A DNA stretch of 64,000 bases from the NCBI RefSeq assembly GCF_001625445.1, contig NZ_LWHG01000021.1, positions 868,001-932,000 of the forward strand, in the 5' to 3' direction. Both the position numbers and the translations under genes were made by a program. Source of the stretch: Haladaptatus sp. R4 (GTDB lineage Archaea > Halobacteriota > Halobacteria > Halobacteriales > Haladaptataceae). Below the pieces are notes generated by a model. The model had not been told where the DNA came from, did not search any database, and saw only the letters and a list, made by a program, of their open reading frames with translations. Positions 758-4,513 of this stretch are shown here, piece after piece (the first letter of the stretch is position 1; each line of letters begins with the position of its first letter).

Positions 758-1395
758 TCACGACTCCGCCGACGCGGCCGAATACTCGTGCACGAGTCTC
801 GACTCCGCCCGATGGAGCACCCCGCTCACGGTCGATTTCGACACGTCGAGCAGTTCCGCCAGCCGCGTTATCGAACAGCGTCGTGGCATCTCGTAGTACC
901 CCTCCTCCACGGCGAGGTCCACGATTTCCGCCTGGCGCTCGGTGAGCAATCCGCTCGAATCGCCCGTCGTCCGAACGGCGACGATTTCGACGGTGGCACC
1001 CATCCCCTCCAGCGCCCGTTTCAGTTCGACGACCCGCTCCCGCGTTTCCGTGACGGTCACGTCCACGGACCCGTTCCGGACCGTCACCGGATATACTCCG
1101 GCATCGTCCCGGTGTCGCGGAAGATGTCGTACGTCTCGTGCGACGTGGCCTCGTTCCGGAACACGGTCTTTCCGTCGCCGTGCATGACGACCCGAAACGA
1201 GTCGATGGAGGGGTCGCGTTCCGCGCTCTCCCGCAGGACGTCCACCGGGACGCCGGTCGTTTCCACGAGCGCACTCGCACGCTCGTCGCCGCCGATACCG
1301 GAGAGGATGCGGAATTCCGCGGTGTCGTATTCGCGCGATATCTTTCCGATCCATAGCCGCTCGGGCACGGTCACGCGAAATCGAATGGAGGCCAT
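758..1395 (-). pseudogene. HTH-10 (bacterio-opsin activator-like) transcription regulator, interrupted by a frameshift
   Basis: Two frames together make one protein of about 212 residues. The N-terminal part (start 1395, MASIRFRV) is a bacterio-opsin-activator sensor-like domain and runs to a stop at 1084 after MPEYIR. The C-terminal part is in another frame and continues with TVRNGSVDVTV, then the HTH-10 domain (LLTERQAEIV, LLDVSKSTVSGVLHRAE). One extra C in the short C run near 1088-1092 would restore EYIPVTVRNG. This is either a real frameshift or a sequencing error. Start 1395 is supported by a TATA-like element 21-29 bases upstream. The family binds DNA and regulates transcription; the target is unknown. 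Confidence 0.8.
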
Positions 1396-1415
1396 CGGCT
1401 CTCCTTCCGCACCCG

Positions 1416-1424
1416 ATATAAATA
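1416..1424 (-). promoter_or_regulatory. TATA element of the HTH-10 regulator
   Basis: On the minus strand the AT-rich element TATTTATAT lies 21-29 bases upstream of the ATG at 1395. That spacing fits a leaderless haloarchaeal transcript starting at or next to the ATG. Confidence 0.5.
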
Positions 1425-1536
1425 AGGCTACATGTGACCGTCTATGTACTCGGAGCCGACGACCCAACCACCATTCGACGAATGACACACGACAATCGCC
1501 GTTCCAGCGGTCGATTTTCCATCCTACTCACTACCG

Positions 1537-2391
1537 ATGATTCGCGTTGACAGCCTCGATTTCGCGTACCCGAACGCCGAGAACGACACGCTTCGTGACC
1601 TCTCTTTCGCGGTCGATTCGGGCGAGATATTCGGCTTCCTCGGTCCCAGCGGGGCGGGAAAGAGCACGACCCAGAAAATCCTCACCGGACTGCTGGACGA
1701 CTACCGCGGGTCCGTCCGCGTGTTCGACCGGGAGGTCCGCGACTGGGACGGTACCTACTACGACCGAATCGGGGTTTCGGCCGAATCCCCCAACCAGTAT
1801 CCCAAACTCACCGGCCGCGAGAACCTCGAACTGTTCGCGTCGCTCCACCGGACCGAAACGAGGGATATCGAGGAACTGTTCTCGCTCGTCGGGCTTGCGG
1901 ACGCCATCGACCGGCGCGTGGGCACCTATTCGAAGGGGATGGCGATGCGTCTCAACTTCATCCGCGCACTCCTGCACGACCCCGAACTCGTCTTTCTGGA
2001 CGAACCGACGAGCGGTATCGACCCCGGCAACGCGAAGCGGATCAAGACGGCCATCGCCGACCTCCGCGACGCCGGCACGACGGTGTTCCTGACGACCCAC
2101 GACATGACCGTCGCTGACCAACTCTGTGACCGGGTAGCGTTCATCGTGAACGGCCGGATTCCGCTCGTCGGGGAACCCGAGGCGTTGAAACGGGAGTACG
2201 GGTCGCGGACGGTTCGGGTGGAGTACCACGATGGGAACCGCCCGCGAACCGCGCGGTTCGCGCTCGACGGGTTGAACGGGAACCCGGAGTTCCGGTCGCT
2301 GCTCGCGGAGAACGACATCGAAACGCTCCACACCGAGGAAGCCACACTGGAGACCGTCTTCCTCGAAGTGACGGGGGAACGGTTAGAGTGA
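1537..2391 (+). CDS. ABC-2 type exporter, ATP-binding subunit
   Basis: A 284-residue nucleotide-binding domain: Walker A GPSGAGKST at about residues 36-44, a degenerate signature YSKGM near 130, Walker B LVFLDEPTSGID near 150 and the switch histidine in TTHD near 188. The C-terminal tail after residue 205 resembles that of drug or antibiotic ABC-2 exporters. It overlaps the downstream permease by four bases (GTGA), so the two are translationally coupled and should form one exporter. Its substrate cannot be read from the sequence. Confidence 0.92.
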   Translation: MIRVDSLDFAYPNAENDTLRDLSFAVDSGEIFGFLGPSGAGKSTTQKILTGLLDDYRGSVRVFDREVRDWDGTYYDRIGVSAESPNQYPKLTGRENLELFASLHRTETRDIEELFSLVGLADAIDRRVGTYSKGMAMRLNFIRALLHDPELVFLDEPTSGIDPGNAKRIKTAIADLRDAGTTVFLTTHDMTVADQLCDRVAFIVNGRIPLVGEPEALKREYGSRTVRVEYHDGNRPRTARFALDGLNGNPEFRSLLAENDIETLHTEEATLETVFLEVTGERLE

Positions 2392-3890
2392 ATCCAGTCG
2401 CCGCGATGATTCGGTGGGACGTACGGCTTCAGCGTCGATACGGCTTCTACACCGTCTACGCAGTGCTGACGGCGTTCTACGTCGTCGCGTTCGTCGGTTT
2501 CGGGTTGCCAGCGGCGGTAACACGGCGTGCGCTGGTGTTCGTCGTCCTCTCCGACCCGGCCGTCCTCGGTTTCTACTTCATCGCCGCGCTCGTCCTCATC
2601 GAGAAACGCGAGGGCGTCCTCGACGCCCTCGTCGTTTCGCCGCTCGGCGTCCGGGGCTACCTCGTCTCCAAAGTCGCGTCCCTGACCCTCCTCGCGGTCG
2701 TCGTGGCGACGGTGCTCGCCCTCGTCGTGCATCCGAGCGGCGTGAACGTTCCGCTGCTGATGCTCGGCGTGGCGCTCACGTCGATTCCCTTCGTCCTCGT
2801 CGGATTCGTCAGCGTCGCCCGGTTCGACTCGATAAACGACTACTTCCTGAGCGCGCTTTTGTACGGCGCGGTACTGTACGCACCGCTGCTGTCGTTCTTC
2901 GGTCTCTTCGACACGCCGGTTTTCTACCTGCTTCCCGTCCGCCCCGCCCTGATACTCATCGACGGCGCATTTCACGGGATTGGGTCGGTGGAGTTCGTGT
3001 ACGCGGTGGGCTACCTGTCGCTCGGAAGCCTCCTCGCGTTCGCCGTGGCGGAGCGTGAGTTCCATCGCCACATCGTACAGCACCGTCCGTCGCGGAGCGA
3101 AACGAACGGATCGAACGGATCGAAATCGTCCCGCCTCGGAGCGGTTCGTGATCTGGGGCCCGTCGGCGGCTTGGCGCTCACGGACGGGAAGAAGTGGTTC
3201 CGTGACCCGCTTCTCCTCGTCGCGGGAACCGGCCCGCTACTGCTCGCCTTGCTCGCTCACGTTGCACTCCCCTTCCTCAACGGGCACTATCTCCCGACCA
3301 TCTCGCTCGTTCCGTACTATCCGCTGGTGCTCGGATTCGTCATCACGTTCCCGCCCTACATCTACGGGTTCGTGGTCGGCTTCTTCGTGCTCGAAGACCG
3401 CGAGCAAGGCGTGCTGGCCGCGCTCTGGACGACGCCCCTGACCGGCCGTGGCTACCTTCGCTACCGCGGCGCGACCGCGTATCTCGTCGGTGCGGTTGTG
3501 ACGATTCCGACCGTGATGCTGTTCGGCCTCGTCCGGGTACCGTCGCTCGTGCTCGTGGCCGTTACGGTCGTCGTCGCGCTCGCTGGACCAGCCATCGCGT
3601 TCCTGTTCGCGGGGCTGCCACGCGACTCCATCGAGGGTGTGGTCATCAACAAACTGCTCGGCCTGTTGTTGATCGTGCCGGTCGCGGGAATCGCGTTGCT
3701 CCCCGAACCGTGGCAGTACGCCGTCGGAATCGTGCCGCTCTACTGGCCGGTGAAGGCGCTCGTCGTGGGAGTCAGCGACGGGATCGGACTTCGTTTCGTC
3801 GCCTTCCTCTTTCTTGGAGTCCTCTCGTTCGGCGTGTCGATTCGGTATCTCGTCCGGCGATTCGAACGGATGGCCCGGGACGAGCGGTGA
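2388..3890 (+). CDS. ABC-2 type exporter, permease subunit
   Basis: A 500-residue integral membrane protein with about twelve hydrophobic segments in two similar halves, each with an ABC-2-like layout: a DREQGVL or KREGVL loop between helices, then LTGRGYL or VRGYL. This resembles fluoroquinolone or antibiotic exporter permeases with both half-permeases fused. Translation starts at GTG 2388, inside the stop of the ATPase gene. A polar linker rich in Ser and Asn near residue 240 joins the halves. It forms the pore for the ATPase at 1537. Confidence 0.85.
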   Translation: MNPVAAMIRWDVRLQRRYGFYTVYAVLTAFYVVAFVGFGLPAAVTRRALVFVVLSDPAVLGFYFIAALVLIEKREGVLDALVVSPLGVRGYLVSKVASLTLLAVVVATVLALVVHPSGVNVPLLMLGVALTSIPFVLVGFVSVARFDSINDYFLSALLYGAVLYAPLLSFFGLFDTPVFYLLPVRPALILIDGAFHGIGSVEFVYAVGYLSLGSLLAFAVAEREFHRHIVQHRPSRSETNGSNGSKSSRLGAVRDLGPVGGLALTDGKKWFRDPLLLVAGTGPLLLALLAHVALPFLNGHYLPTISLVPYYPLVLGFVITFPPYIYGFVVGFFVLEDREQGVLAALWTTPLTGRGYLRYRGATAYLVGAVVTIPTVMLFGLVRVPSLVLVAVTVVVALAGPAIAFLFAGLPRDSIEGVVINKLLGLLLIVPVAGIALLPEPWQYAVGIVPLYWPVKALVVGVSDGIGLRFVAFLFLGVLSFGVSIRYLVRRFERMARDER

Positions 3891-3916: not shown

Positions 3917-4513
3917 TCAGTAGGAATTGACGAGGTCGATGTAGTGGTCCCAATCCCAGTTCGAACCGGGGTCGGTGTGACTGCTGGAGGGGACCTGTGA
4001 GTGCCCGATGATACCGCCGTTGGCCGGGTTCGCGGCGTCGCTCGGGACGCTCGTCGGGTGCTGTTTCGGCACGCCGTACTGGTCACAGAGCCAACTGGCC
4101 AGTTTGGCCGACGCCTCGTACTGCGCTTCCTCGTAGGTCCCGCTGACGTAGCCGCCGTGTTCGATGCCGACGGAGTACTTGTTGTAGTCCCAGTCACCGG
4201 CGTGCCACGCGATGTTGATGTCGCTGACGCTCTGATATTTGTAGCCGTCCTCGGCGACGATGTAGTGTGCGCTGACGTCCGCATCGGGGTCCTGGAACCA
4301 GTTGGCCGCGCTGCTCGCCGACCCCTGCACGGTGTGGATGATGACCCAGTCGATCAGTCCCGCACCACGGTCCGCCGCCGTGTAGTTGCTCGAATCGGCC
4401 GGTTGCCAATGGACCGTCGGCTTGGCCGCCGCAGTTCCACTGAACGCAACCGCACCGAGTCCCGCCGTGCCTGCCGCACCGATCGTCTTGAGTAAGTTAC
4501 GTCTGGATGGCAT
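3917..4513 (-). CDS. Tat-exported N-acetylmuramoyl-L-alanine amidase (Amidase_2 / PGRP fold)
   Basis: A 198-residue protein. The first about 30 residues are a twin-arginine signal (SRRNLLKTIGAAG, hydrophobic core, AxA-type site near GTAAAKP). The mature part is an Amidase_2 domain: first zinc His in VIIHTVQG, substrate-side segment VGIEHGGYV, second His in IIGHSQVP, and Asp ligand in HTDPG. The family cleaves the lactyl-amide bond between MurNAc and the stem peptide of bacterial peptidoglycan. Haloarchaea have no peptidoglycan, so the likely target is outside: bacterial competitors or debris. Start 4513 is chosen because it gives the compact Tat signal; a TTG at 4528 is possible. It stands alone, convergent with the ABC permease gene. 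Confidence 0.9.
   Translation of the reverse strand: MPSRRNLLKTIGAAGTAGLGAVAFSGTAAAKPTVHWQPADSSNYTAADRGAGLIDWVIIHTVQGSASSAANWFQDPDADVSAHYIVAEDGYKYQSVSDINIAWHAGDWDYNKYSVGIEHGGYVSGTYEEAQYEASAKLASWLCDQYGVPKQHPTSVPSDAANPANGGIIGHSQVPSSSHTDPGSNWDWDHYIDLVNSY

Follow-up and report, generated by a model that had tools for sequence, protein, structure and literature searches.

A predicted Tat-exported murein amidase of Haladaptatus and its ties to a haloarchaeal MurNAc catabolic gene cluster

Introduction

Tat-exported enzymes of the haloarchaeon Halogranum salarium, built from M23 and PG_binding_1 domains, have been reported to kill bacteria (Strock et al. 2025, PMC12352652). In that paper modular peptidoglycan hydrolases are placed in ~5% of archaeal genomes, Opp-MppA homologues are found in excess in the genomes that carry them, and whether such hydrolases serve defence, predation or scavenging is posed as a question. 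The survey, as described there, counted proteins with at least one catalytic and at least one wall-binding domain and did not require a secretion signal, and a stand-alone amidase is thus not counted by its stated criteria (PMC12352652).

Bacteria offer parallels both for a single-domain amidase and for the use of its products. AmpD is a cytoplasmic amidase that recycles anhydro-muropeptides, and Streptomyces has Tat-type secreted Amidase_2 proteins. In Bacillus subtilis the recovery of MurNAc is encoded by the cluster murQRP-amiE-nagZ-namZ. NamZ is an exo-muramidase that releases MurNAc and AnmK phosphorylates anhydro-MurNAc; the MurNAc sugars on which they act are constituents of murein and are absent from chitin and from haloarchaeal glycans. 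A related cluster on a Paenibacillus plasmid (NZ_CP045294.1) has the order murR-murQ-ABC transporter-AnmK-GNAT-PIG-L deacetylase-NamZ, plus an ATPase and a GH10-like gene.

Here we describe an amidase, P0001, encoded in a window of 64,000 nucleotides (the whole stretch of DNA analysed) from Haladaptatus sp. R4. Like Woldo and Danwoldo of Halogranum salarium B-1, P0001 is, by prediction, a haloarchaeal Tat-exported murein hydrolase acting on bacterial peptidoglycan. Woldo combines an M23 peptidase with two PG_binding_1 domains, whereas P0001 consists of one Amidase_2 domain and has no binding domain; the available part of the paper describes no murein-sugar catabolic cluster alongside Woldo and Danwoldo (PMC12352652). 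Taken by itself, the amidase belongs to a type already described; what looks new is that in archaea it is linked with a cluster for MurNAc catabolism. A search of the open-access literature (subscription papers and preprints were outside its scope) found no paper on murein or murein-sugar catabolism in haloarchaea.

Results

An intact gene for a single-domain amidase with a Tat leader

The open reading frame fills its coordinates (Table 1) exactly, running from an ATG start through 198 codons to a stop, and is intact. Its product has Amidase_2 (PF01510) as its sole Pfam domain, matched with an E-value of 7e-32 and 110.9 bits against a cut-off of 26, and is without a wall-binding domain. The N-terminus, MPSRRNLLKTIGAAGTAGLGAVAFSGTAAA, reads directly as a twin-arginine leader with an AxA site behind it. 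Two Tat profiles score below their cut-offs (TIGR01409, 16.0 against 16.7 bits; PF10518, 14.4 against 22.7 bits). An RRxx[LIVMFW] leader is found by pattern in 81 of the 87 haloarchaeal relatives, and judged by eye the P0001 leader appears to be a standard haloarchaeal Tat leader. Because P0001 has no lipobox cysteine, it is predicted to be free in the medium. Its domain is acidic, as expected of a secreted haloarchaeal protein (pI 4.5, against a median of 5.8 in the bacterial rows of our alignment). Mature-domain dN/dS values of 0.14-0.22 between P0001 and five orthologues indicate that the gene is maintained by purifying selection and is not a chance reading frame.

Table 1. Features of the amidase gene and its product, in window coordinates
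Feature	Position	Strand	Basis
Tat-exported Amidase_2 (N-acetylmuramoyl-L-alanine amidase, predicted), P0001, 198 aa	3917..4513	-	ORF, profile match, orthologues, dN/dS
Twin-arginine signal peptide, residues 1-30 (SRRNLLK ... TAAA)	4424..4513	-	Direct reading, RR leader in relatives
Amidase_2 catalytic domain, residues 54-183	3965..4354	-	Pfam profile; Foldseek on low-confidence model
H60, predicted first zinc ligand	4334..4336	-	Conservation
E118, predicted catalytic acid	4160..4162	-	Conservation
H171, predicted second zinc ligand	4001..4003	-	Conservation
D181, predicted third zinc ligand	3971..3973	-	Conservation; aligns with TDPG of AmpD

All of the ligands expected of Amidase_2 zinc amidases (H, H and D/C, together with the catalytic Glu) are present. 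Each of the 87 distinct haloarchaeal sequences has H60, as do 24 of the 25 bacterial rows, the remaining row having a gap at this position; both E118 and H171 are invariant across all 115 rows of the alignment, the 87 haloarchaeal ones included. The third-ligand position, D181 in P0001, is D in 63 and C in 21 of the haloarchaeal rows (84 of 87 D or C). We take E118 to be the equivalent of AmpD E116. An earlier sequence-only reading of this stretch had described a Tat signal followed by an Amidase_2 domain with intact zinc ligands in the motifs VIIHT, IIGHS and TDPG, and each of these elements proved to be correct.

Profile alignment pairs P0001 with the solved structures of AmpD, AmpDh2, AmiD and XlyA. 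A structure model, used as support only (pLDDT 61, low to moderate confidence), has AmpD as its top Foldseek match (E 1.6e-6), with AmiA, XlyA and AmpDh2 also among the best. Taking profile and fold together, the best solved-structure matches are AmpD, AmpDh2 and AmiD. Unlike the cytoplasmic AmpD, however, P0001 has an export leader, and it falls below the AmpD equivalog cut-off (NF008758, 59 against 143 bits). The fold is shared with peptidoglycan-recognition proteins, and RefSeq names orthologues of P0001 'peptidoglycan recognition family protein', as might be expected if the protein bound or sensed peptidoglycan without hydrolysing it. Non-enzymatic proteins of this kind are without a zinc ligand, whereas P0001 has every catalytic residue, and we consider such a role very improbable.

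A profile search for murC found no match above cut-off in the nine Haladaptatus genomes, in agreement with the earlier premise that these cells have no murein, and turnover of the cell's own wall was rejected on the same grounds. Overall, the sequence supports the assignment of P0001 as a predicted exported murein-type amidase without a substrate at home.

Distribution and descent of the amidase family

Amidase_2 is present in all nine Haladaptatus genomes and in 65 of the 392 Halobacteriales genomes, spread over 19 of the 95 genera sampled; the other 327 genomes have none. Orthologues of P0001 in named Haladaptatus and Halorussus records are 78-85% identical to it. The window genome itself carries two further Amidase_2 loci: a paralogue that joins the amidase to SH3 (L002), and a locus on contig C29 (L003, ~327-329 kb) where a Tat-type glucosaminidase gene directly precedes an SH3-amidase gene that appears frameshifted in its SH3 part.

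Haloarchaeal relatives of the amidase are fused in one chain to SH3_3, to two PG_binding_1 domains or to a glucosaminidase, as in bacterial wall hydrolases, which strengthens the earlier proposal of an exported murein-type enzyme. P0001 lies outside the definition of a modular hydrolase given in PMC12352652, and its paralogue L002 and relatives L021, L030 and L049 lie within it. Two loci (L049 and L050) have 727-aa ORFs joining Amidase_2, SH3 repeats and a glucosaminidase, proteins in principle able to cut both the peptide and the glycan parts of murein.

The 87 haloarchaeal rows of a 115-domain tree all fall into a single group (SH-aLRT 98), apart from the sampled Streptomyces, Nonomuraea, Myxococcales and other rows. 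P0001 falls in a clade with a support value of 97 that has members embedded in the murein-sugar cluster described below. This comparison with bacterial Amidase_2 domains, which the sequence-only reading had proposed, is consistent with an ancient acquisition, after which the gene was duplicated and its domains were shuffled, although the bacterial reference set is small and, at 25 rows, thin for naming a donor. The Streptomyces copies (L057-L064) are 44-46% identical to P0001 over almost the whole length, signal included, and have the same ligands, HTDPG motif and RR leader. The haloarchaeal copies differ from them in a ~13-residue insertion before the second ligand, in their acidity and in forming their own clade.

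The gene had also been thought to stand alone, as an acquired gene would. Its neighbours are indeed unrelated, but it is no isolated oddity: the two nearest species (L149, L150) have it at the same locus and every genome of the genus has the family, on which grounds a recent isolated acquisition was rejected. ABC transporter genes at 1084-3890 of the window (ATPase 1537-2391, permease 2388-3890) are missing at the same site in those two species. A phage or halovirus origin was rejected, as identity to phage proteins reaches ~37% at most, across a part of the domain, and a scan of viral contigs returned one weak match (30% over 57 residues). Contamination was likewise rejected: the window lies on a haloarchaeal contig, and the clusters described below lie on complete plasmids of named haloarchaea amid archaeal genes.

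A murein-sugar gene cluster that includes amidase orthologues

In Halorussus vallis, H. aquaticus and H. limi, plasmid-borne orthologues 78-80% identical to P0001 lie within a murein-sugar gene cluster. The Halorussus amidase gene is flanked by a HAD-family gene and by one for a beta-lactamase-family (serine) hydrolase, and the cluster also encodes AnmK, GNAT, SDR, GH10-like, NamZ (DUF1343), NagZ, creatininase-family and GH18 proteins, an IclR regulator and an SBP_bac_5 (Opp-type) transporter. Across haloarchaea, where we compared 20 cluster loci from 19 genomes, NamZ, NagZ and AnmK occur together with the transporter, as in a bacterial-type MurNAc catabolic cluster. The cluster NamZ matches both NamZ_N and NamZ_C (Pfam) far above cut-off and closely matches a solved Bacteroides member of the family (E 2e-84), and AnmK (458 against 387 bits) and NagZ (239 against 207 bits) exceed their NCBIfam equivalog cut-offs. 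Read directly, the GH18 protein, which resembles a chitinase, and the binding protein have Tat leaders, the latter with a lipobox as well, and no leader is visible in NamZ, NagZ or AnmK.

In five genomes (G147, G178, G108, G041 and G380) the distance between the amidase gene and NamZ is 2.7-12.3 kb; the amidase lies inside the cluster or at its edge, and three arrangements occur. In G380 a gene for a Tat-type NlpC/P60-SH3 protein, which resembles gamma-D-Glu endopeptidases, is followed by the amidase and then GH18 at the edge of the NamZ cluster. A mandelate-racemase-family (MR_MLE) gene is found in or next to several clusters; the more distant matches to it include the L-Ala-D/L-Glu epimerase of B. 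subtilis.

The haloarchaeal clusters have much of the Paenibacillus arrangement, with AnmK next to GNAT, NamZ accompanied by a transporter, a GH10-like gene nearby and, in some, PIG-L; NagZ and the beta-lactamase-family hydrolase are held in common with the B. subtilis cluster. In contrast to the bacterial clusters, they have neither MurQ nor MurR, their ABC transporter is of the Opp/Dpp type and their regulator of the IclR family, and their hosts have no murein. A search of the nine Haladaptatus genomes for the MurQ etherase gave no TIGR00274 match above cut-off and weak matches only, so that the route beyond MurNAc-6P is incomplete in this genus.

A conserved cytoplasmic protein of 390 aa, which we call A2 (L131:11608-12792), and its homologues adjoin NamZ in 14 cluster loci. 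The protein has an invariant CFCxxC motif, belongs to no Pfam family and is labelled 'putative glycoside hydrolase' in some records. Its weak resemblance to TIM-barrel glycosidases (GHL10, DUF4015, Cwp19 E 0.28) makes A2 a possible candidate for a new enzyme of MurNAc or glycan breakdown.

The composition of the cluster bears on whether P0001 might act on a native archaeal or environmental polymer, such as an S-layer glycopeptide, an exopolysaccharide or a chitin-associated peptide, with a murein amidase as its ancestor only. The activity of P0001 is read from its sequence, H104 is replaced by T in 13 of the 87 relatives, some of which have other changes near the site, and the chitinase-like GH18 suggests that further GlcNAc polymers may be processed by the cluster as well. 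Against this, the zinc ligands and E118 are invariant, the family is fused to PG_binding_1, SH3 and glucosaminidase domains, NamZ and AnmK are MurNAc-specific families, and absence from most haloarchaeal genomes would be unlike a housekeeping envelope enzyme. A native substrate is consequently unlikely in our judgement.

The window genome's copy of the cluster

In the window genome the P0001 gene lies outside the cluster, the gene being on contig C21 and the cluster on C3. This copy (L129, C3:68001-88000) has the complete gene order with at least eight frameshifts, which fall in the genes for the ATPase, binding protein, AnmK, serine hydrolase, NamZ and NagZ. Its dN/dS is not relaxed (0.19-0.21, against 0.19), and ORF density is normal in most nearby stretches of C3, one other stretch being low as well. 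Very recent decay and local sequencing error are therefore both possible. If the decay is real, the window strain has lost the sugar pathway and kept an exported amidase, and killing or the scavenging of peptides would then be the favoured role in this strain.

Co-occurrence of amidase and cluster

NamZ and AnmK are found in an identical set of 26 of the 392 genomes, including all nine of Haladaptatus. Amidase_2 is present in 21 of these 26 genomes, against 44 of the other 366 (Fisher p 7e-14). The cluster-bearing genomes are partly related, so that their co-occurrence is not fully independent; counted by genus, which removes shared ancestry only in part, the figures are 7 of 11 genera with NamZ/AnmK against 12 of 84 (p 0.0009). 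A wider sample of the phylum contained NamZ in four of 345 genomes, three of them haloarchaea that were already known. The 44 genomes with Amidase_2 and without NamZ/AnmK imply that the enzymes must also be useful in the absence of the sugar pathway.

Discussion

From its sequence, intact active site, family, selection and distribution, and from the physical linkage of its orthologues to the murein-sugar cluster, we infer that P0001 is exported, that it cleaves bacterial murein and that the products are taken up and used. Its main use is probably the digestion of wall material from dead or lysed bacteria, with the products feeding NamZ, NagZ and AnmK. P0001 would be a soluble zinc amidase that leaves the cell by the Tat route and, once outside, cuts bacterial peptidoglycan at the MurNAc-L-Ala bond. 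It would belong to a haloarchaeal set of secreted murein hydrolases that in relatives includes amidase-SH3, amidase-PG_binding_1 and amidase-glucosaminidase proteins, a stand-alone glucosaminidase and the NlpC/P60 protein. The freed peptides and short glycans would be taken up through Opp/Dpp-type transporters, and the imported sugars would be broken down inside the cell by NamZ, NagZ and AnmK, whose cluster is present in every Haladaptatus genome. The importer encoded in the cluster agrees with the excess of Opp-MppA homologues in hydrolase-bearing archaeal genomes (PMC12352652). Digestion of walls for food is the best reading of the clusters because MurNAc is a sugar of murein and because the haloarchaeal clusters share AnmK-GNAT, NamZ and GH10-like genes with the bacterial one.

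The sequence-only reading had left open whether the enzyme lyses competitors or scavenges their wall fragments, and had pointed to the suggestion that archaea direct peptidoglycan hydrolases against bacteria. That idea is now published with experiments, which give a direct haloarchaeal precedent of a Tat-exported hydrolase that kills (PMC12352652). P0001 could accordingly be an antibacterial weapon like Woldo and Danwoldo, secreted to lyse competitors with nutrition secondary or absent. The occurrence of several paralogues per genome, their patchy distribution and the presence of some copies on plasmids would fit an arsenal, as would the many amidase-bearing genomes that have no sugar cluster and the possibility that the cluster of the window genome is dead. 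On the other side, the wall-binding domain is absent from the whole clade of P0001, the compact amidase has been kept vertically at one locus in the three closest species, and a weapon needs no linkage to MurNAc catabolism and importers. Moreover, for all eight Haladaptatus amidase copies that lie outside a cluster, the same genome has a NamZ/AnmK cluster at another site. We regard a role mainly as a weapon as a minority possibility, although a more credible one than action on a native polymer. The gene clusters favour scavenging of bacterial murein, which remains the likeliest reading, with killing as a means or a by-product; the killing of live bacteria may accompany it.

On a broader view, we judge the chances to be about even that some haloarchaea feed on bacterial walls by way of secreted amidases, glucosaminidases and endopeptidases, import of the fragments, and MurNAc catabolism by NamZ, NagZ and AnmK together with a route that does not use MurQ. 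If this is true, cells that make no murein of their own would have a pathway for eating it. A MurNAc gene set that travels with secreted hydrolases makes the choice between combat, predation and scavenging a testable one. Should the reading be correct, archaea would contribute to the turnover of bacterial necromass in saline soils and salt lakes, and would do so with genes of bacterial type.
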